Shown one piece after another: positions 7,593-29,430 of a DNA stretch of 64,000 bases (positions within the stretch are counted from its first letter, which is position 1; every line of letters begins with the position of its first letter). Made by a program: the position numbers and the translations under genes. Under the pieces are notes generated by a model, which was not told the origin of the DNA, ran no database searches, and saw only the letters and a program-made list of their open reading frames with translations. Source of the DNA: Fluviirhizobium alvei (lineage in GTDB: Bacteria > Pseudomonadota > Alphaproteobacteria > Rhizobiales > Rhizobiaceae); NCBI RefSeq assembly GCF_030551875.1, contig NZ_JAUOZU010000007.1:248001-312000 (forward strand), read 5' to 3'.

Positions 7593-7667
7593 GCTGCTAT
7601 AGCTCAGGGGTAGAGCACTCCCTTGGTAAGGGAGAGGCCGAGAGTTCAAATCTCTCTAGCAGCACCA
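7593..7667 (+). tRNA. tRNA-Thr (GGT)
   Basis: 75 nt with encoded CCA. Acceptor strand GCTGCTA pairs with TAGCAGC, the anticodon arm is CTCCC-TTGGTAA-GGGAG with anticodon GGT, and the T arm is GAGAGTTCAAATCTCTC. Its 3' end is the left boundary of the AT-rich insert that follows. Confidence 0.97.
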
Positions 7668-7963: not shown

Positions 7964-8848
7964 CTATCTAGGTTGATTGCCAGCGGCCTTTAATAAATCC
8001 GCAATCGCGAAGGGCTCCCCTCCGTCATTCGCGTGCCCCGGCATAGCGCGAAACAGCGCCTCTAGGACAATTGCTCTATCCGAGTTAGTTCCTTCATCTT
8101 GTTCAACCAAGTATAGATATGTTTCGAGCATTGCATGACGCTGCTCGCTGTCATCCAGCAAAATCAGCGTTCTTGCATTGTATCTGATCAACAATTTTAT
8201 AATCCAAATATATAGAGCAATTGGCAACGTGACGACAACCAATCTTCCTAACGCTATTACGTATACTAAACCACCGGCAATATCTTTACCGGACGCCACT
8301 TCCAACATTTCGGCTTCAATATTATTTAAGAATTGTAGTATTTGAAAATTTGCAGTAGCGATAAAAATTATTGGGCATATCAAAAATACTGCTATAATAA
8401 TTGAAGAATTTCGAAATGAATCTCGAAATTTCAGTGACCTTGTCGTCCACAATTTTCTTGCTTTCTCCAGCTTCAATTTCTCTAAGACACTGTTCTTAAA
8501 CCCTTCGATATCCGTTTCTACATTGATAATAGTTTGATTAATATTTGAACTCTTGTTCTCAAGTGAGGATAACTCTGCTTGGGCGCTGGACACGGATTGC
8601 GAGATATTTTCTACAAGCCCGTCAAGCTTTGCGAGACGAATTTGCGATTGATCTAAAGCGCTTCTTACTAAATTCGGCACTTCTTCTTCAATTTTGGCGT
8701 AAATCATTCTGTTGATTTCCGCTCTAAATTCATCCTCAAAATTGTTGTTAGGATTTAACAGGCCCGGGCTAGCACCAGTAAGGAGTTGTTGCAGCTTGTT
8801 GAGCGGATTAGCGTATTGCGAGATGTCCATTGCCACCCAAGACTCCAT
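7964..8848 (-). CDS. Coiled-coil membrane protein of unknown function
   Basis: 294 residues from the ATG at 8848; ATG 8830 (MDISQYANPL) is an alternative with GGGTGG just before it. Layout: an acidic N-terminal part, a coiled coil around residues 60-135 (heptad-like 'LDGLVENISQSVSSAQAELSSLENK'), two hydrophobic segments near 155-180 ('IIIAVFLICPIIFIATA') and 205-235 ('ALGRLVVVTLPIALYIWII'), then a cytoplasmic C-terminal domain 'DDSEQRHAMLETYLYLVEQ ... RAIVLEALFRAMPG'. The tail recalls DUF6161-type proteins from memory, which I cannot confirm. It is the only gene of the tRNA-Thr insert and its codons are AT-rich, so it was probably acquired horizontally. Confidence 0.75.
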   Translation of the reverse strand: MESWVAMDISQYANPLNKLQQLLTGASPGLLNPNNNFEDEFRAEINRMIYAKIEEEVPNLVRSALDQSQIRLAKLDGLVENISQSVSSAQAELSSLENKSSNINQTIINVETDIEGFKNSVLEKLKLEKARKLWTTRSLKFRDSFRNSSIIIAVFLICPIIFIATANFQILQFLNNIEAEMLEVASGKDIAGGLVYVIALGRLVVVTLPIALYIWIIKLLIRYNARTLILLDDSEQRHAMLETYLYLVEQDEGTNSDRAIVLEALFRAMPGHANDGGEPFAIADLLKAAGNQPR

Positions 8849-9129
8849 CAATTGCGCGTCAAATACGGCTCAATCACGACTCAGCGCCATATGCAATTTT
8901 AGCTTGAATGTTGATCGCCTTCACTAGCATTGGAGTGCAATGCAGGGGTATTTTTGCTGGCGCAACTCGATTTGTGCTTTTGGATAGCCTCTTGGTCCGT
9001 TTCCAACTTTCGCGCGTCCACAAAGCCGCAAGCAAAGCTTGCTACAAAGCGGCGTTTCATCAAATAATGAAAATGTAATAATATCATGTATTTATGATGC
9101 TTTAGTTTGGAGATTTCCAGTTTTTAATC

Positions 9130-9152
9130 CTCTCTAGTACTACCATTTTTCC
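9130..9152 (+). repeat. Right direct repeat (attR-like) of the tRNA-Thr insert
   Basis: CTCTCTAG-TACT-ACCATTTTTCC, matching the tRNA-Thr 3' end at 7652..7675 except for three substitutions within the CAGC/TACT segment and one T fewer. It lies 37 nt from the stop codon of the deacetylase gene, where normal composition resumes. Confidence 0.6.
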
Positions 9153-9188
9153 AGCAAAATCCATGCGTCCGGATCGATCAGCCGGTCT

Positions 9189-9959
9189 TCAACCCACCTG
9201 CGACAGCATCACCGCTTCGACCTTCCTGCTGCCGGGATCGTGGCCCGGACATTGGCACGGATCGTCAACGGCGCCCGGATGGACCATCATCAGGCAATCG
9301 TCTTTTCGTCGCGCAAGCAGCCTCGGCAGCCATCGGGCAACGGCGTCCGGCCGGTCCAGTCTCAGAAAGCCGGAAAAATCGCTGTTGATCCGCCAATGTT
9401 TGCGGGCGAAGACAGCTCTCGCCTGCCATGCCATTGCGGCGACCACCAGGACCTTGAGCCCACCTGCCCGCACATTGAGGATCAGCCCCGGGAGATGGGC
9501 CGGAAGCGGAACACGCATCCATGTCCCTTCCTCCCTCGGCAGATCGGCCGCAAAAGCAGCGATCCCCGGCAGGCAATGACAATGCTGGTGACCGTCATAA
9601 TAATCCGGCAGCGTTCCGAAGAGCTTGCGGAACGCCTCCGTTTGCCGGACGAGTTCGGTTCGCGCCCAGTCGGGAGCCTTGCCCAGCAGACATTCCCGCA
9701 TCAGTGACGAAAGCGGCGCATGCGCCGACATGGCGGCAAACGGATGCGTGAGATTGAGGTGGAGCCCGACCTTTGCGCCCTTCTCTCTGAGCGCCTTCAA
9801 GGCGCTGACATCGGCCATGTCCATGTCCCCGTCGATCATGACGGAGGTTCCGTCGATCCGGCCGCTCGCCAAAAGAGACAGGATCACGCGGTCATGTCCA
9901 CGACCAAGGCCGAAATCGTCAGCGATTGTGAGCGCGATCGCGTCAGCCTGGCCAGACAT
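9189..9959 (-). CDS. YdjC/HpnK (ChbG) family carbohydrate deacetylase
   Basis: 256 residues from ATG 9959 (MSGQADAIAL); the longer frame from 10037 lies mostly inside the upstream gene. Metal-binding signatures of the ChbG/HpnK/NaxD family are visible: 'IADDFGLG' (Asp pair), 'GLHLNLTH' (His) and 'YYDGHQHCHCLPG' (His residues). Family members remove acetyl groups from N-acetylated sugars, including undecaprenyl-phosphate-linked GalNAc (NaxD of Francisella) and hopanoid GlcNAc (HpnK). It overlaps the PMT-type gene by 17 nt, so it is the last gene of the gtrA-gtrB-PMT operon. This context favours a lipid-linked sugar as substrate. Confidence 0.85.
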   Translation of the reverse strand: MSGQADAIALTIADDFGLGRGHDRVILSLLASGRIDGTSVMIDGDMDMADVSALKALREKGAKVGLHLNLTHPFAAMSAHAPLSSLMRECLLGKAPDWARTELVRQTEAFRKLFGTLPDYYDGHQHCHCLPGIAAFAADLPREEGTWMRVPLPAHLPGLILNVRAGGLKVLVVAAMAWQARAVFARKHWRINSDFSGFLRLDRPDAVARWLPRLLARRKDDCLMMVHPGAVDDPCQCPGHDPGSRKVEAVMLSQVG

Positions 9960-11463
9960 AGACAACCGCCATTTCAAACGGGACCTTGTGCGGAAAACGC
10001 ACACCAGTCCGCCGTGTTTCAAGGATGGCTTCCGCACTGTTGAGACCGACGGTCGTCGCCCAGTTCATCGCCTCTTTGAGACAGTCGCGATCGACATTCC
10101 CGACAGGCTCCAGCGAGCAGATGATCACGCCGGCCTCCTGACGCCAGTTGGTGCGGGGCGGATAGTAGGATGGCATCCGGTCGGGCAGGTTTGGCAAAGC
10201 CTCGACCGCACCATCGGAAAAGAACGCGAGATTTGCGGCGCTGTTGCCCTTGGCCGTCCAGGACAGGGGCAAGGCCGAACGTTTGGACCAGTTGGCAAGA
10301 ATGGCGGCCGCCGCTTCCTCATTCGGCACATAGAAGCCGGGCCTGCCCTTGAGGCCCTGAACCGCGCCAATTGCCAGACCGGCCACGATCATGAGCGGCC
10401 AGAGGAAGCGGAACGCCGACACGAGCTGCGCCGAGCGAACCGCAAGCATCTGCGGCGGAACGTTCGTTGCGATATAGAGCGTGAAGGCAAAACCGATCGG
10501 AATCGCCCAGGGCATCGAGAGTTCGACAAGGCCAACGACGGAAAAAAGGATCGTCGTCAGCCAGGGACCGAGCGCCGCAAACAAGAGCAATCCCGGCACG
10601 AAACGGGGCGAGAGGATTTGCCGGATGCGCCCAGCCAAGGAGCCGCGCGCGAGAAAGGCAAAGGCAACCAGAAGCGGGATCGGCCAATAGATGAGCGGGG
10701 CAGCCAGGAACTTCAGGATGTATTTGACATGCTGCCCTGCGGTGTCGTCGGTGCCCTGTTCGCTGGCATAGGCGAGTGCTTCGGAATGCGTCACGAGCCA
10801 GTAAAGATGCGGCGCAGAGGCAAGCAGGAAAACAGCCACGGCCAGCCAGGGCGTGGCCGTTCGCCAGATCCCGCGCTGGGATGGCAGGAACGCATAGGCA
10901 AACAACGGAAGCAGCAGAACAATGGAGTAATATTTGCTCAGCATCGCGATTGCGGCCAGCACCCCGAACGCAGCCGCATGCACTCTGCGACTTTCCGTTC
11001 TGCCATCCAGCGCCTTCGCAAAAGCCCAGACCACCCAGGGCCAGACCGACAGGCAGATTGCATTCATGTTCAGTTTGCCGGGCAGCGTCAGATAGGGAAG
11101 CGCCAGCACCGTCAAAGCCAGCGCCAGCGAAACGGCAGGTTCGCTCATTTTGAGCGCGCGACCGAGAGCCACGATCCCGTACAGCGCGATGGCGAGATTG
11201 ATGGCGGACAGGAAATAGAACGAGGCAACCGATTTGGGAGCCGCCAGGAACCAGAGTTTTGCCATCCACGGCAGAAATTGCGGATGTTTGTCGGACCCCA
11301 GAAGCCAGTGCTGCGACCAGGCATAGACTTCGACCATATCGCCATAGCTATCGAGCGTGCTCTTGGCACTGATCGTCATCACCCACCAGACCAGGCAGTG
11401 AATGAGGATAAAGACGGATGGCCTTGACCAGATAGACTTGGGCGACACAGGCAACTCTTTCAA
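9943..11463 (-). CDS. ArnT/PMT-type (GT39/GT83) membrane glycosyltransferase
   Basis: 506 residues with about ten predicted membrane segments, for example 'FILIHCLVWWVMTISA' at the N terminus and 'IAMLSKYYSIVLLLPLFAYAF' in the middle. The first periplasmic loop contains 'YGDMVEVYAWSQHW' and 'KHPQFLPW', the acidic substrate loop typical of GT-C enzymes such as ArnT, Rgt and PMT proteins. These enzymes move a sugar from a polyprenyl phosphate onto lipid A, LPS core or another acceptor on the outer face of the inner membrane. It lies 34 nt after gtrB and overlaps the deacetylase gene. The acceptor cannot be told from sequence alone. Confidence 0.87.
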   Translation of the reverse strand: MKELPVSPKSIWSRPSVFILIHCLVWWVMTISAKSTLDSYGDMVEVYAWSQHWLLGSDKHPQFLPWMAKLWFLAAPKSVASFYFLSAINLAIALYGIVALGRALKMSEPAVSLALALTVLALPYLTLPGKLNMNAICLSVWPWVVWAFAKALDGRTESRRVHAAAFGVLAAIAMLSKYYSIVLLLPLFAYAFLPSQRGIWRTATPWLAVAVFLLASAPHLYWLVTHSEALAYASEQGTDDTAGQHVKYILKFLAAPLIYWPIPLLVAFAFLARGSLAGRIRQILSPRFVPGLLLFAALGPWLTTILFSVVGLVELSMPWAIPIGFAFTLYIATNVPPQMLAVRSAQLVSAFRFLWPLMIVAGLAIGAVQGLKGRPGFYVPNEEAAAAILANWSKRSALPLSWTAKGNSAANLAFFSDGAVEALPNLPDRMPSYYPPRTNWRQEAGVIICSLEPVGNVDRDCLKEAMNWATTVGLNSAEAILETRRTGVRFPHKVPFEMAVVYVWPG

Positions 11464-11497
11464 CTAGGGAAATGCAGGGGCAACAGACGCAGAGGAT

Positions 11498-12469
11498 TTA
11501 TTGCGATGGCCTGCCGTCACCCGTCACCTGATTGTCGTCGGCAATCACGTAGCTCGGCCGTCGTTTGACCTCCGAGACGATCTTGCCGACATATTCCCCG
11601 ATCAGGCCGAGAAACACCATCTGCAGACCGCCGAAAAAGGAAATCAGCGTCAGGATCGAGGCAAGGCCAATGCTGCTGGAGGGGAAGAACAGACGTTCGA
11701 TGATGATATAGAGGCCATAAAGACCGCTGAAACAGGCGATCAGCAGCCCGGCAAACGCCATGATCCGGAGCGGCGCCGTCGTGAAACTGGTCATGGCATC
11801 GAAGGAGAGCGCAAGCAGACGCAAGGAGCTGAAGCTGGATTGGCCGCGTTCGCGCTCGACATGGGGGAGCGGGATGCCGCGTTGCGAGAAGCCGACCCAG
11901 CCGTAAAGCCCCTTCATGAACCGTTCGCTCTCGGGCAACATGCGCAAGGCATTGGCGTAACGCTGGCTGATCAGCCGGAAATCGCCGGCATTCTCGGTCA
12001 TCTGGAAGCGCGAACCCTGGTTCATGATCCTGTAGAAAATCCGGCTCAGAGCCGCCTTTGCGACACCGTCGCTGACCCGTCGCGATTCCTTGTAGGCATA
12101 GACGGTGTCGACCTTTTCGTCGCGCCAGATCCGGACCATCTCCTCGATCACTTCCGGCGGATGCTGAAGATCGGCATCCATCATGATGATGGCGTCGCAA
12201 TCGGTTGCGGCATCGATGCCTGCGGTCAGCGCAGCCTCCTTGCCGAAATTGCGCGAGAACCGCAGAAGCCGGGCCTTGCGACCGCCAAAATCGAGCTGCC
12301 GCAGAAGATCGTAGCTATTGTCCCGGCTGCCATCATCCACGAAAACATAGCGGACCTCCATGCCATATTCGGCTTCGAGCCGACGCGCGATCGCGTCGAG
12401 ACGCTCGATCAGCATCTGAAGATTGGGCGTCTCATTATAGACGGGCACGATGATCGACAGGGACGTCAT
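11498..12469 (-). CDS. GtrB/ArnC-like polyprenyl-phosphate glycosyltransferase
   Basis: 323 residues from ATG 12469, which overlaps the gtrA-like stop codon (ATGA); the larger open frame up to 12862 is the shadow of that gene. GT2 fold: 'SIIVPVYNETPNL' at the N terminus, 'YVFVDDGSRDNS' and the DxD motif in 'MMDADLQHPPEV'. Two membrane helices near the C terminus ('IMAFAGLLIACFSGLYGLYIII' and 'ILTLISFFGGLQMVFLGLIGEYVG') anchor it. It should transfer a sugar from a UDP- or other nucleotide donor to undecaprenyl or dodecaprenyl phosphate. The nearest known rhizobial role is RgtE (Dod-P-GalA synthase), the enteric one ArnC. Confidence 0.9.
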   Translation of the reverse strand: MTSLSIIVPVYNETPNLQMLIERLDAIARRLEAEYGMEVRYVFVDDGSRDNSYDLLRQLDFGGRKARLLRFSRNFGKEAALTAGIDAATDCDAIIMMDADLQHPPEVIEEMVRIWRDEKVDTVYAYKESRRVSDGVAKAALSRIFYRIMNQGSRFQMTENAGDFRLISQRYANALRMLPESERFMKGLYGWVGFSQRGIPLPHVERERGQSSFSSLRLLALSFDAMTSFTTAPLRIMAFAGLLIACFSGLYGLYIIIERLFFPSSSIGLASILTLISFFGGLQMVFLGLIGEYVGKIVSEVKRRPSYVIADDNQVTGDGRPSQ

Positions 12470-12864
12470 GGGCGATCTTTCAGGAAGATGAAGGCGGAGG
12501 AAATTCCGAAATTGATGATCGAGACGGCAACGATGGCGACGATGACCGCGATCTCGGTCGACGCTCCCCAGGCCATCAGTCCATTCAGAACCACGAAGCG
12601 GAGACCGAAGACAAGGACCGTCAACAGGGCAAAGCGCCCGTAGCGCACAAGCGCACCCTTTTCGGCTACACGGAAGGTGATGTGATCGTGGTAGAGAAAG
12701 ACGACAAGGGAGCTCACAACCATGGCCAGGACAAGGGCGACGCCAGGCGACAGACCATAGTGATTGTGCAGAGAGAGGGTGATGAAATAATCGATGATCG
12801 CCCCCAGAAGCGAACCGCCCCCAAACACGATAAAGCTCTTGAGCTTGGCTAAGAGATGCCACAT
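12466..12864 (-). CDS. GtrA-like membrane flippase
   Basis: 132 residues with four membrane helices, standard size for GtrA (PF04138). The typical start 'FIVFGGGSLLGAIIDYFITLSLHN' is followed by 'FLYHDHITFRV' and 'RYGRFALLTVLVFGLRFVVLNGLMAW'. GtrA-type proteins help flip the polyprenyl-phosphate sugar made by GtrB; RgtF plays this part in rhizobial galacturonic acid transfer. First gene of the operon, overlapping gtrB by 4 nt. About 290 nt upstream to 13156 hold no gene; its promoter should be there. Confidence 0.9.
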   Translation of the reverse strand: MWHLLAKLKSFIVFGGGSLLGAIIDYFITLSLHNHYGLSPGVALVLAMVVSSLVVFLYHDHITFRVAEKGALVRYGRFALLTVLVFGLRFVVLNGLMAWGASTEIAVIVAIVAVSIINFGISSAFIFLKDRP

Positions 12865-13156
12865 CGTCAGAACGGTCCGTTCAGAACAGTCGAGTTGAGC
12901 AACGTTTGCTGCAGAAACGTGGCAAAGGAGAAAGCCGCAAGTCCGGAAATGCTCCGCACCGCGCCCGGATCCTGCATTTAAATAATGCGCAGTCCGGAAT
13001 CAATCCGCTGCGCGTAGGGTTCGTCTGGCGAGGCCCAAAAGGGAGGTCAAGACGCGTTCAGGGCGCGGGTGCGCAGGTGCGATCGCAGCCGTTATGTTTA
13101 AAGCGCCGGCGAAACCTTTAGCCGTAACGGGATGAATGAATATTGCTCCTGAGCCA

Positions 13157-15145
13157 TCAGACGGCGATCTTGCTGTCCTCGCGGCTGGTTCGAGCCGCAA
13201 ATTCCATCGCCTGCTCCTCCGGCAGCGGAGGCGAGAAGAGATAACCCTGAACGCTGGTGCCGCCCAAGGCTTTGAGTGCTTCGAGTTCTTCTTCCGTTTC
13301 GACACCCTCGATCACGCAATCCAATCCCATGTCGGCACTGAGGGTCAGGAGAGATTTGACGATTTTGTAACTTGCGGGGCTCTGGTGCAGGTTCGTGACG
13401 AAACTCCTGTCGATCTTGAATTTCGTCAGGGGCAGCGCATGCAGCCGAGTGAGGCTCGAATAGCCGGTTCCGAAATCGTCGAGCGAGATTCCGCAACCAA
13501 GGCGCCGCAAGGTCTCGACGGATTGCGTCACCTGCTCGAAGTCGTGGGTGAAGGCGGTTTCCGTAATCTCGAGGTCAAGCCGTTTCGGATCGAAGCCGCT
13601 GGTCTCGATGATGCCGATAATCGCCAGAACACCATCGGCAGCATTCAGGTCATGCGCAGACAGGTTGAACGAGAGGCGCAAAGGCGCATCCCATGAGATG
13701 GCTGCATCAAGTGCCTTCCGGAAAAGGGGCCGCGTCAGCGAGCCAATCATGCCGGCCCTCTCAGCGATCGGGATGAAGCTCGCCGGAGACACTTTCCCCA
13801 AAGTCGGGCTATCCCATCGCGCCAGCGCTTCAAACCCGATCGTCGAGCCGTCGCGGATATCCACGATGGGCTGAAAAACAACCGAGAGCTCTTTTTCCAG
13901 ATCGGCCTGCTTCAGCACACTTTCAATCCGGGCCTCAAGGTTGATCTGATGTTCATGGTCGGTATTGAAGAGAACAGCACCACCACGCAATCTCTTCTTG
14001 GCGTGGTAGAGCGCGTAGTCGGCCCGGTCAAAAAGCTGTTCGCGGTTCAGGGCCAGGTCGGGAAAGACGGCGATCCCCATGGACGCCGAGACATGGACCG
14101 TGCCTTCCGGCATCGGATACGGCTCCCGCAACCGCGCAGACACCCTGTTCGCATTTATGACGAGCTGCGCATCCTCAGGCGGCAGCGCTGCAATGATCGC
14201 AAATTCGTCACCACCCAATCTGTAGGGTGTGCTGGCGGTCAAAGTGTTGGACAGGCGATTGGCGACCTCGATCAGGAGACGATCGCCGACCGAATGACCG
14301 TAAAGGTCATTGACGGGTTTGAAGCCATCCAGGTCCATGACCCCGAGCGCCAGGCGGTTTCCGCTCGCCCGCGCCTTTTCCAGTTCGTATTCTAGGTCCG
14401 CAAAGAAGGCGCGCCGGTTTGCGAGACCCGTGAGGCTGTCGAGATTGGCGAGCCTGAAATTCTCGCAACTCAGCGCGTCACTCCGCTGCTTTGCAACCAC
14501 CATGCTTTCGAAGTTCCGGTAGTTGGTCAACAGAATGGTCATCATCCCTGCGCACACCAGAAGGATATTGATCGCTATCGCGACGAATGTTGGCTGCGCC
14601 GTCGAGACGAAGAAAGCAATAAAGGCACCGTTGACAATCAGCGTCACGATGAAGGCGGCCGAGCGGACATACATCAGACAGAAGATGCAGGATATGACGG
14701 TGATTGCCATGTAAAAGGCAACATGCGAGCGCGTGTAGGCGTCGCCATAGGGAATGAGGGCGAAGGACCAGAGCGTAAAGGCAACCGCGATCAAACCTGC
14801 GAGACGGTTGGTACGCTGAAGTGCGGCATGGGCAAATTCGGGTGATGGCGTAACATTTCTGGTCCGGAACCAGAAGAGCACGCGAAGGAGGCAGCCGAAT
14901 GTCAGTACGGATGGCACGCCGATCGTCAGCCACACTGGGGCGAGGCTGACATGGGTCATGGCGAGTGCCCAGGTGCTAGACAGCAGAATGAAATACATCA
15001 TCGGCATCTGACGGGTAAAAGCCCGATACTGAGCTTTGAGAAGCTCAGGATTTTCGCTCTGTACCGACATGAAGTCTCGGATTCTGCGTTGTATAATCTT
15101 GAAATTCATAGGCCCGCCCATCGCCAGATGAACGTTTCCTAACAT
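13157..15145 (-). CDS. Membrane GGDEF-EAL cyclic-di-GMP protein
   Basis: 662 residues (an ATG at residue 13 is also possible). About six membrane helices between residues 48 and 207 form an N-terminal sensor, followed by a GGDEF domain (intact GGDEF at 311-315, 'DSLTGLANRRAFF' at 236) and an EAL domain ('IGFEALARW' with EAL at 439-441, 'SLDDFGTGYSS', 'TKFKIDRSF', 'VIEGVETEEE'). All residues needed for diguanylate cyclase and phosphodiesterase activity seem present; no RxxD inhibitory site precedes the GGDEF. It can both make and break cyclic di-GMP in principle; which dominates is unknown. It is a single-gene unit between the gtrA operon and tRNA-Arg. Confidence 0.93.
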   Translation of the reverse strand: MLGNVHLAMGGPMNFKIIQRRIRDFMSVQSENPELLKAQYRAFTRQMPMMYFILLSSTWALAMTHVSLAPVWLTIGVPSVLTFGCLLRVLFWFRTRNVTPSPEFAHAALQRTNRLAGLIAVAFTLWSFALIPYGDAYTRSHVAFYMAITVISCIFCLMYVRSAAFIVTLIVNGAFIAFFVSTAQPTFVAIAINILLVCAGMMTILLTNYRNFESMVVAKQRSDALSCENFRLANLDSLTGLANRRAFFADLEYELEKARASGNRLALGVMDLDGFKPVNDLYGHSVGDRLLIEVANRLSNTLTASTPYRLGGDEFAIIAALPPEDAQLVINANRVSARLREPYPMPEGTVHVSASMGIAVFPDLALNREQLFDRADYALYHAKKRLRGGAVLFNTDHEHQINLEARIESVLKQADLEKELSVVFQPIVDIRDGSTIGFEALARWDSPTLGKVSPASFIPIAERAGMIGSLTRPLFRKALDAAISWDAPLRLSFNLSAHDLNAADGVLAIIGIIETSGFDPKRLDLEITETAFTHDFEQVTQSVETLRRLGCGISLDDFGTGYSSLTRLHALPLTKFKIDRSFVTNLHQSPASYKIVKSLLTLSADMGLDCVIEGVETEEELEALKALGGTSVQGYLFSPPLPEEQAMEFAARTSREDSKIAV

Positions 15146-15367: not shown

Positions 15368-15444
15368 TGGCGCACCCGACAGGATTCGAACCTGTGACCT
15401 TTGGAATCGGAATCCAACACTCTATCCAGCTGAGCTACGGGTGC
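15368..15444 (-). tRNA. tRNA-Arg (CCG)
   Basis: 77 nt with encoded CCA. Acceptor GCACCCG pairs with CGGGTGC, discriminator G. Anticodon arm TTGGA-TTCCGAT-TCCAA gives anticodon CCG. T arm contains AGGTTCGAATCC. Confidence 0.96.
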
Positions 15445-15670
15445 GCATGCCGGTTGCCGCACGAAGCAGCACGACAGCCCTCCTTTAGCCTAGAGCTTTG
15501 ATGCCATCAATGGCAAAATTCAGTTCCATCCAACCAAAACGCTTTTTCCACGGACCGTGGCGAGATCCGATCCGGCTTCGGCCCGGCATGGGACCTGACC
15601 GCCTTTGTCCCTAGGTTCGGGCAAGTCAGGCATGCGAGAGATGCGGCATCATCGAGAAAGAGTGCCGACC

Positions 15671-16633
15671 ATGCCGCAAAACATCATCTGGCTCGCAAGC
15701 TATCCGAAATCGGGCAACACCTGGCTGCGCGCCTTCATCAGTTCGATCCTGGGTCTCGGCACTATCAATGACAAGGGCGCGTTTGCCCGCTTTACCTCGA
15801 CCTGCAACTCGTCGGAAGCCCGTGCGCTTTTTTATGGCGATCAGCCGATGCCGGAAGTATTGCCCGACATGGCCTGGCGGGCGCCGCTGCAGCGGCAGAT
15901 TTCCGCCCGCGTGGGCGCTTCCCGTCATTTCTGCAAGACCCACAGCCGCTTCGGCACCATTGATGGCAACCCGCTCATTGCTCCGGATGTTTCGCTGCGC
16001 GCCGTGGTGATTGTCCGCAACCCGATCGATGTCGCGGCTTCCTTTGCCAATTACATGACGACGACGCCGGAGATGGGGATCAAGCTGATTGCCAACCCCT
16101 TCATGACGCTGTCGAACCGCAACCGTTCGCATTACATGATCAGCGTTGGCAGCTGGGATCTCAACGTCCTGTCCTGGCTGACCCAGTCCGAAATCCCGGT
16201 CTTCCTCATGCGCTATGAGGATATGTATTTCGACAAGGAAACGGCGTTCGGCAACTTTGCCCGCCAGGTGCTGGGCATCCGCGACCAGGCCAAGATCGAC
16301 AAGGCAATCGAGGAAAGCGATTTCGGCCGCCTGCAGGCCCGCGAGCAGGAAGTCGGCTTCCGCGAGAACATCTCAAGCGTCAATCCCTTCTTCTGGCGCG
16401 GCTATCCCTATCATGCGCTCGAGATCTATGACGAAGCGCAGCGGCAGGCGATCTGGGATCGGCACCGCATTGTCGCCGAAGCGCTTGGCTATCGCTACGA
16501 TGGCAAGACGATCACGCTTGAAGCGCCCGACATGGCGCCGCTCCACGCCTACCGCCAGCAGCTTCTCGGCCTGATCGACGCGCCTTATGCGCTGCCGCCC
16601 GAACTGATGGCCGTGGCCAACAAGGGCAGCTGA
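15671..16633 (+). CDS. Sulfotransferase domain protein
   Basis: 320 residues from ATG 15671 (MPQNIIWLASYPKSGNTWLR); starts further up (15605, 15641) add a non-conserved stretch. The 5'-phosphosulfate loop 'YPKSGNTWLR' is at residues 10-19 and the 3'-phosphate motif 'VVIVRNPIDVAASFANYM' near 115, with a late 'FRENISSVNPFFWRGY' segment. Family members move sulfate from PAPS to hydroxyl or amino groups of sugars, lipids or proteins; no transmembrane segment is seen. It lies next to tRNA-Arg and converges with the crotonase gene (6-nt gap). The substrate is unknown; surface polysaccharide or LPS sulfation is a reasonable guess in rhizobia. Confidence 0.85.
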   Translation: MPQNIIWLASYPKSGNTWLRAFISSILGLGTINDKGAFARFTSTCNSSEARALFYGDQPMPEVLPDMAWRAPLQRQISARVGASRHFCKTHSRFGTIDGNPLIAPDVSLRAVVIVRNPIDVAASFANYMTTTPEMGIKLIANPFMTLSNRNRSHYMISVGSWDLNVLSWLTQSEIPVFLMRYEDMYFDKETAFGNFARQVLGIRDQAKIDKAIEESDFGRLQAREQEVGFRENISSVNPFFWRGYPYHALEIYDEAQRQAIWDRHRIVAEALGYRYDGKTITLEAPDMAPLHAYRQQLLGLIDAPYALPPELMAVANKGS

Positions 16634-28774: not shown

Positions 28775-29014
28775 ATGGCCAATGTCCTCATTCGCAATCT
28801 CAGCGATGAAACGCACCGCGCCTTGAAACTGCACGCGGAGAAGCATGGTCGTAGTACCGAAGCAGAAATCCGCGCCATTCTGGACGAGGCCATGAAGCCG
28901 GAAGAGCCCATCAAGCTGGGGACGGCTTTGCGCGAATTCGGTGTAAAGTTCGGCGGAATAGATATCGACTTCGAACGGGATCAGAACCCGATCGAACCGG
29001 CGACTTTTGAATGA
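28775..29014 (+). CDS. FitA/StbC-like ribbon-helix-helix antitoxin
   Basis: 79 residues. The RHH DNA-binding domain is N-terminal ('NVLIRNLSDETHRALKLHAEKHGRSTEAEIRAILDEAM'), and a short C-terminal toxin-binding tail follows ('GTALREFGVKFGGIDIDFERDQN'). It overlaps the PIN toxin gene by 4 nt (ATGA). The pair matches the FitAB type of toxin-antitoxin systems. Two palindromes upstream fit auto-repression. Confidence 0.9.
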   Translation: MANVLIRNLSDETHRALKLHAEKHGRSTEAEIRAILDEAMKPEEPIKLGTALREFGVKFGGIDIDFERDQNPIEPATFE

Positions 29015-29430
29015 TCGTCGTCGACACGAACATCATCTCCGAGCCAATGCGCTCACGGCCCGATCCCAGGGTCGAGCAATGGCTAAACGATCAGCCGCCT
29101 GCAACTCTTTTTCTTACATCTGTCAGTCAGGCAGAATTGCTGGTGGGCGTGGAATTGGTTCCGGATGGTCAGCGGAAGCGCGCCATGTTTGCCCAAATGG
29201 AGATGCTGCTGGATTCTTTGTTCGGCCCCCGGATACTACCCTTCACGACCGAAGCCGCCAGAATTTATGCGACCGCGGTCGCCCACGCCCGAAAAAATGG
29301 CTTCAACACGAGCATGGCCGATGGTCAGATAGCATCCATCGCAAGAGTAAACGGCTTTTCGGTGGCAACGCGCGATCAAGCGGCTTTCGAAGCTCTCGGC
29401 GTCCCCGTCATCAACCCCTGGACCGCCTGA
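29011..29430 (+). CDS. FitB/VapC-type PIN-domain toxin
   Basis: 139 residues. PIN-domain acidic residues are visible in 'VVDTNIISEPMR' (D5), 'SQAELLVGVE' and 'FNTSMADGQIASIARVNGFSVATRD' (two acidic sites). VapC/FitB toxins are Mg-dependent RNases, often cutting tRNA or other RNA. It is paired with the RHH antitoxin and ends 3 nt before the convergent DNA ligase gene. Confidence 0.92.
   Translation: MIVVDTNIISEPMRSRPDPRVEQWLNDQPPATLFLTSVSQAELLVGVELVPDGQRKRAMFAQMEMLLDSLFGPRILPFTTEAARIYATAVAHARKNGFNTSMADGQIASIARVNGFSVATRDQAAFEALGVPVINPWTA

Follow-up and report, generated by a model that had tools for sequence, protein, structure and literature searches.

A gtrA-gtrB-PMT_2-ydjC operon of Fluviirhizobium alvei that probably decorates the cell envelope with a deacetylated amino sugar

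Which sugar is prepared on a lipid carrier, and to which acceptor is it handed, when a rhizobial genome combines a putative flippase, two glycosyltransferases and a carbohydrate deacetylase in one small operon? This question is raised by a locus in Fluviirhizobium alvei (Rhizobiaceae; contig NZ_JAUOZU010000007.1, positions 248,001 to 312,000), a stretch of 64,000 nucleotides to which we refer as the window. Cationic sugars on lipid A aid the survival of Gram-negative bacteria in the face of cationic peptides, and a module of this kind has been described in Francisella, Bordetella and Acinetobacter; related operons are patchily distributed in Shinella, Martelella and other rhizobial genera. The best explanation for the locus, and one that we hold to be probable, is that a lipid-linked N-acetylhexosamine is deacetylated, flipped and given to an envelope acceptor as a hexosamine, much as in some bacteria that resist polymyxin, though by way of another last transferase. 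The reactions, the order of the steps, the sugar, the acceptor and an effect on cationic peptides are what we infer. The operon spans positions 9189-12864 on the minus strand and consists of four intact genes with open frames, listed here in the order of transcription:

gtrA, 12466..12864, minus strand: small GtrA/DPMS protein (PF04138, 53.4 bits, cut-off 26.1) with four hydrophobic segments
gtrB, 11498..12469, minus strand: GT2 glycosyltransferase (PF00535, 97.6 bits, cut-off 23.3) with two C-terminal hydrophobic segments
GT-C transferase gene (PMT_2), ~9943..11463, minus strand: PF13231, 72.5 bits (cut-off 26.1), nine hydrophobic segments
ydjC, 9189..9959, minus strand: YdjC-family carbohydrate N-deacetylase (PF04794, 116.2 bits, cut-off 29.7)

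Presence, intactness, order, span and strand of the four genes had been claimed in a preliminary description of this DNA and are all borne out by reading frames and Pfam matches. The genes had also been called overlapping, and this holds for gtrA and gtrB, which share 4 nucleotides (ATGA), and for the GT-C gene and ydjC, which share 17, but not for gtrB and the GT-C gene, which lie 34 nucleotides apart when TTG at 11463 is taken as the uncertain start of the latter. Promoter and terminator scans of positions 8800-13200 performed no better than shuffled sequences (2 versus 1.5 and 4 versus 5.1, respectively), so that the limits of the operon rest solely on gene spacing.

By their Pfam families, the proteins match the definition of a multi-component transmembrane glycosylation system, i.e., a GT2 polyprenyl-phosphate transferase, a GtrA flippase and a GT-C protein. 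GtrA is the presumed flippase of the lipid-linked sugar, as judged from its family, and GtrB is assigned through the GT2 family as a predicted polyprenyl-phosphate sugar transferase. The latter stays below the cut-offs for ArnC (160 of 529) and PgfS (241 of 500) and is the single relative of its kind in its own genome (one match at E 0.001). This genome (completeness 99.75) yields one match for PF04794, one for PF13231 and none for PF02366, and no further protein of the PF13231/PF02366 GT-C families was found in it beyond that of the operon, which thus brings its own last transferase. The definition of these systems, as given in one source, names O-antigen modification as a use (PMC8035078).

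In the pathway that we propose, GtrB would transfer an N-acetylhexosamine, either N-acetylglucosamine or N-acetylgalactosamine (GalNAc), from its uridine diphosphate form to undecaprenyl phosphate on the cytoplasmic side of the inner membrane. Soluble YdjC would then strip off the acetyl group in the cytoplasm, leaving a cationic hexosamine, and GtrA would bring the amino sugar, still on its lipid, across to the periplasmic side. There, the GT-C protein would hand the hexosamine to its acceptor in the envelope, for which lipid A and the inner core of lipopolysaccharide (LPS) are the strongest candidates. The outcome would be a less negative cell surface. This proposal is built on what the sequences and models show directly. 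The four genes are present, the active-site residues of the deacetylase are intact and the folds have been predicted; in addition, deacetylase and GT2 genes keep together across loci, and operons with this core carry either of two GT-C types.

The deacetylase belongs to the PF04794 superfamily by score, conserved residues and ChbG fold. Residues D14, D15, H67, H124, H126 and H128 (Asp-Asp, His, HxHxH), which we take to be catalytic, are invariant in 19 aligned sequences, those from Bordetella and Acinetobacter included. A structural model (pLDDT, the predicted local distance difference test score, 95.1) finds ChbG (7vi8) as its best solved match with an E value of 1.3e-11. Hydropathy analysis revealed one internal hydrophobic segment (159-177) and none at the N-terminus, and no signal peptide-like N-terminus was seen by this method. 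Of the earlier label "YdjC/HpnK deacetylase" the first half stands, while HpnK identity is rejected (TIGR03473, 27.1 bits versus a cut-off of 232.6), as is ChbG identity (NF002559, 49.8 bits versus 227). None of eight scanned YdjC relatives passed the HpnK or ChbG cut-offs. The deacetylase phylogeny that had been proposed as a check was run with Bordetella and Acinetobacter (NaxD-like) rows as a quick, midpoint-rooted tree of 113 of 119 sequences, which contains no HpnK or ChbG sequence, leaves out the partial L097 and L123 as well as the named-locus copies L021-L024, and carries a long-branch warning for L026. It places the window protein in a clade of 29 rows with a support of 100 in the Shimodaira-Hasegawa-like approximate likelihood ratio test (SH-aLRT), or 26 rows (SH-aLRT 98) without the three outermost. 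Its members are rhizobial records (NCBI Brucellaceae, Phyllobacteriaceae and Martelella among them) and two Rhodobacteraceae. The clade stands apart from those of Bordetella (four rows), Acinetobacter (four rows) and other alphaproteobacteria, and the Bordetella and Acinetobacter clades are also separate from each other. While window ydjC has a GT2 and a GT-C gene as partners, as expected for the NaxD/LgmC type, its product does not group with the Bordetella or Acinetobacter proteins and seems to represent a lineage parallel to them rather than an orthologue.

A scan of named genomes returned 136 YdjC relatives, for which 80 loci were kept; these records carried no annotation, and genes were assigned by profiles. 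For 75 of the 80 loci, the fetched stretch with ydjC also contains a GtrB relative, the Lgm/NaxD-like loci of Bordetella and Acinetobacter among them, and it is for this reason that we regard the polyprenyl-phosphate N-acetylhexosamine logic of the preliminary description as the best explanation. None was seen in the stretches of five loci (L076, L102, L110, L123 and L140), at least two of which (L076 and L102) are short contigs. The gtrB and ydjC genes either adjoin or flank a GT-C gene, with the exception of L100, where ~2.7 kb lie between them. The 24 closest loci (L069-L092) all contain a GT-C gene, and all four functions occur together in 22 of them, which exceeds chance; the other two (L076 and L084) are cut at a contig end. 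Three arrangements are found among the 24. Six loci (five Shinella, Martelella mediterranea) show gtrA-gtrB-PMT-ydjC as in the window. Sixteen, of which two break off where the contig ends, show gtrA-gtrB-ydjC-ArnT-like (Hoeflea, Brucella/Ochrobactrum, Mesorhizobium soli, Rhizobium tubonense and genus-less records), and two (Martelella alba, Martelella sp. HB161492) have gtrA-gtrB-ydjC with an ArnT-like gene upstream on the opposite strand. Among the 56 more distant loci, 30 have a GT-C gene, ArnT-like in 21 and PMT-like in nine, and a GtrA relative occurs in 39.

Two unusual layouts were noted among the related loci. In Pseudovibrio stylochi (L107, 4445-9383) two different PMT_2 proteins flank the gtrB-ydjC pair, as if one lipid-linked sugar fed two last transferases. 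In L119, L133, L142, L143 (Ancylobacter) and L112, gtrB and ydjC are arranged head to head, each on its own strand, and the profiles used detected no GT-C gene in these stretches.

How closely does the operon resemble systems of known function? The same four functions are encoded in Bordetella (L106, L114, L117, L138), where the order is gtrB-ArnT-ydjC and gtrA, on the opposite strand, separates ArnT from ydjC; judging by genus and gene content, we take these to be the lgm loci (LgmA-D). They are also encoded in Acinetobacter (L129, L130, L147), where L129 and L130 show the order ydjC-gtrB-gtrA-ArnT, unlike the window; presumably this is the naxD cluster for PmrAB-regulated addition of galactosamine to lipid A. 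The Bordetella deacetylase has its active-site residues in common with that of the window but is only 32% identical and falls into another clade, and its GT-C partner matches both PF02366 and PF13231 and carries an RYA motif, whereas the window protein matches PF13231 only and carries SYG. The Acinetobacter operons end with an ArnT-like gene with PF02366, and their deacetylase is 26% identical and again belongs to a different clade. The statement that FlmF2, NaxD and FlmK of Francisella use exactly this logic, a likeness that we take from published descriptions, thus holds for the four functions seen in Bordetella and Acinetobacter but not for a last transferase outside the ArnT profile and PF02366, nor for a deacetylase outside their clades and below the HpnK cut-off. 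We assume that naxD is located beside flmF2 and flmK. The latter two have the neighbouring locus numbers FTN0545 and FTN0546 (PMC4688374). LgmB is described as adding glucosamine to lipid A phosphates of B. pertussis (PMC11401268), and a review states that NaxD deacetylates undecaprenyl-phosphate GalNAc before transfer (PMC11279074). Glucosamine or galactosamine on lipid A has been reported in Bordetella and Acinetobacter (PMC11401268, PMC6635527, PMC11279074).

Closer to the window stand the rhizobial sister operons of the ArnT type (Hoeflea, Brucella/Ochrobactrum, Mesorhizobium soli, Rhizobium tubonense), which share the gtrA-gtrB-ydjC core and a deacetylase that is 50-56% identical and resides in the same 26-row clade. 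In these operons the ArnT-like gene follows ydjC, whereas the PMT gene of the window precedes it. The aligned sisters L025, L077 and L083 have RYA, and L025, which was scanned, contains PF02366. The rhizobial Rgt system, compared by description, shares the polyprenyl-phosphate donor (RgtE) and transfers the sugar to lipid A (PMC5644692), but RgtE/RgtF/Rgt work without a deacetylase and with a sugar acid instead of an amine. The window operon is therefore of a known kind, i.e., a deacetylating, three-component amino-sugar decoration, and what is new is its own deacetylase clade, a different last transferase and the rhizobial host.

The last transferase had been called "ArnT/PMT-type", which is supported by PMT_2 (PF13231) and by fold, but not by PF02366 or by an ArnT profile, so that membership in the ArnT/LgmB/FlmK group is not indicated by either. 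The ArnT-like proteins of L025, L106 and L129 match both Pfam families. The ArnT profile, built from eight seeds among the ArnT-like genes of the studied loci, remained silent on the window protein even at E 10. Seven PMT-type proteins at a greater distance scored 13-29 bits with it, and ArnT and PMT types are thus probably remote kin. A sequence search of the PDB yielded chance-like matches only (E 0.46 or worse), which made a comparison of folds necessary. The AlphaFold model (pLDDT 85.0, predicted template modelling score 0.87) has Cupriavidus ArnT (5f15) as its best solved match, with Z 24.8 and a root-mean-square deviation of 4.8 over 422 residues (range 8-506), followed by the protein O-mannosyltransferase Pmt4 (9i5l; Z 23.2, 337 residues, range 4-372). 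Oligosaccharyltransferases also span the GT-C chain with Z 19.6 or less, and Foldseek template modelling scores against the ArnT-type fold are 0.51-0.59. As modelled, the protein has a predicted ArnT-type fold with a periplasmic C-terminal domain.

Operons with the same core thus carry one of two GT-C types. In a tree of concatenated GtrB and YdjC (22 loci), a nine-row group (support 100/99) unites the window with Shinella, M. mediterranea and the two Martelella that carry an ArnT-like gene, and within it this Martelella pair is nearest to the window (89/94). In the ArnT tree, a quick tree in which the pair sits on a branch of 0.65, it is found inside the rhizobial ArnT clade (SH-aLRT 98 for 18 rows, 87 for the inner 10). 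The exchange trees comprised 25 or 22 loci, with L076, L081, L084 and L085 of the 24 closest left out as cut, partial or near-duplicate. At least two changes of GT-C type are needed to account for 25 loci plus outgroup. The approximately unbiased (AU) test does not reject the seven PMT rows as one clade (p-AU 0.219), so that direction and number of exchanges are not fixed, and the case for exchange is based on the conflict with the ArnT tree, not on the AU test. Taken in this way, the trees suggest that the last step has been exchanged between PMT and ArnT-like types on the same core. Tentatively, we put forward the further possibility that the PMT_2 transferase is a new last enzyme for deacetylated lipid-linked hexosamine, exchangeable with the ArnT-like enzyme on the GtrA-GtrB-YdjC core and directing the sugar to a different place, e.g., a non-phosphate position of a phosphate-poor rhizobial lipid A or the core. 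If this is true, the GtrA-GtrB-YdjC core would be a donor module that takes different plug-in last transferases. Operons with two GT-C types on one core also provide close pairs for asking what sets the acceptor.

In principle, the hexosamine may be delivered to LPS or elsewhere. Lipid A or core is ranked first as the most likely acceptor, and the fact that two Martelella combine this core with an ArnT-like gene favours a similar acceptor for the PMT type. The same donor pathway might instead serve an acceptor other than LPS, such as another envelope polymer, a lipid or secreted proteins (O-glycosylation), with the GT-C protein acting as a protein or polysaccharide glycosyltransferase. We consider this unlikely, though it has to be taken seriously: the GT-C model is nearly as close to Pmt4 as to ArnT, the ArnT profile misses the protein and no LPS gene was recognised beside the operon, whereas Pmt4 covers residues 4-372 alone while ArnT extends over 8-506, and the Martelella operons from the same core clade speak for an ArnT-like destination. 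Distinctly improbable is an O-antigen or capsule cassette of the gtr type, which would add the sugar to a surface polysaccharide on the periplasmic side, in the manner of GtrABC serotype conversion, with the deacetylase tuning what is added. GtrA and GtrB are indeed the constant gene pair of gtr serotype-conversion cassettes, but the recurring company here is a deacetylase plus a PMT_2 or ArnT-like gene; GtrC/GtrII-type genes were not searched for. That ydjC encodes a deacetylase with an HpnK or ChbG function, linked to hopanoids or chitooligosaccharides, and resides beside a glycosylation cassette by coincidence has hardly any probability, since its weak likeness to both NCBIfam models and ChbG as closest solved fold are outweighed by scores far under the cut-offs, by the recurrence of gtrB around ydjC and by the overlap of ydjC with the GT-C gene.

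The decoration of lipid A or core that we prefer has several observations to contend with. Nothing in the sequence fixes sugar or acceptor, and neither a regulator nor another LPS gene was recognised within the operon. By the profiles built here, a GT-C gene was not found in 26 of the 56 more distant ydjC stretches, and two closer relatives of the window lack components, L025 gtrA and L026 both gtrA and the GT-C gene. Four genomes of the family have a relative of the window GT-C protein with neither GtrB nor YdjC within ~1.5 kb, which counts against a strict tie. In an alignment with 15-17% identity, the window protein has SYG at the place of ArnT RYA, and no arginine is seen where we would place the second-loop arginine of ArnT. 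For ArnT, Tyr43 of RYA and the lysine of YFEKP are described as required for function, and the second-loop arginine is taken from the same paper (PMC5377068). RYA is found in rhizobial and Bordetella ArnT-like rows and RYG in Acinetobacter. The tyrosine is retained in the window SYG and is not invariant across the window's GT-C subfamily, and in the same alignment K59 of K59-H60-P61 lies one column off the YFEKP lysine. Sixteen positions, including D42, E45, H60, P61, K177 and Y178, are invariant in 19 sequences of the subfamily. Because of SYG in place of RYA and the apparent lack of the second-loop arginine, a lipid A phosphate as acceptor is not a given. Note that R. etli and R. leguminosarum are reported to remove lipid A phosphates (PMC11279074). 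Nor should a strong effect on resistance be assumed, because overexpression of naxD in clinical Acinetobacter is described as insufficient for colistin resistance, with PmrC as the main effector (PMC6635527).

The operon is accessory in its genus, where it occurs in one of nine genomes and in one of the five that are at least 90% complete. In the family, 19 of 151 genomes contain a YdjC relative. Six of these (G000, G075, G081, G012, G108, G059) have proteins 51-100% identical to that of the window; G115 is 36% identical yet groups with these six in the tree, and the other 12 are at 31-38%. Across the class, a YdjC match was obtained in 35 of 385 genomes, the window's own included, and the other matches listed belong to other families, none with more than 36% identity. 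Relatives of the window GT-C protein are confined to 17 of the 151 family genomes. Taking both surveys as covering the same 151 genomes, for which the labels agree, both genes occur in 13, the GT-C type alone in four, YdjC alone in six and neither in 128 (Fisher p 2.7e-11, relatedness ignored). Both lie within one fetched stretch in 10 of the 13, three of the 10 with PMT scores of only 50-61 bits. We thus state that the PMT type is tied to YdjC beyond the window's own clade. A partial literature search found no description of a rhizobial deacetylating amino-sugar operon, in line with the earlier statement that this variant had not been described in rhizobia; as an operon type it is not unique to the window, given its relatives in Shinella, Martelella, Hoeflea, Brucella/Ochrobactrum, Mesorhizobium soli and Rhizobium tubonense.

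The operon is located just beyond tRNA-Thr(ggt) (7593-7667), which lies beside murA. The 3' end of this tRNA gene (42 nucleotides) recurs in degenerate form (71%) at 9109-9150, and between the two copies resides a DUF6161 gene (7964-8851, minus strand) in AT-richer DNA (42% GC at 8001-9000). This part of the window looks like a small element integrated at tRNA-Thr with a worn att-like copy. By tblastn, murA was detected in all six congener stretches, and the tRNA-Thr near murA is kept in five of them, while none of 11 window proteins from the DUF6161 gene up to 21607, the four operon proteins included, was found in these six stretches, two of which are shorter than 7 kb. These findings fit an operon situated in an accessory, acquired region.

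Immediately upstream of gtrA, after a gap of ~290 nucleotides, the same strand encodes a GGDEF-EAL protein (13157-15145, minus strand). In other genomes of the genus, its best full-length matches reach no more than 45-50% identity, and for this reason it may also be accessory. Past tRNA-Arg (15368-15444) follows a gene for a protein with a sulfotransferase domain (15605-16633; PF00685, 42 bits). Further away, the translation of a small open reading frame at 29011-29430 starts in a way that we take to resemble a PIN-domain toxin of the VapC type.

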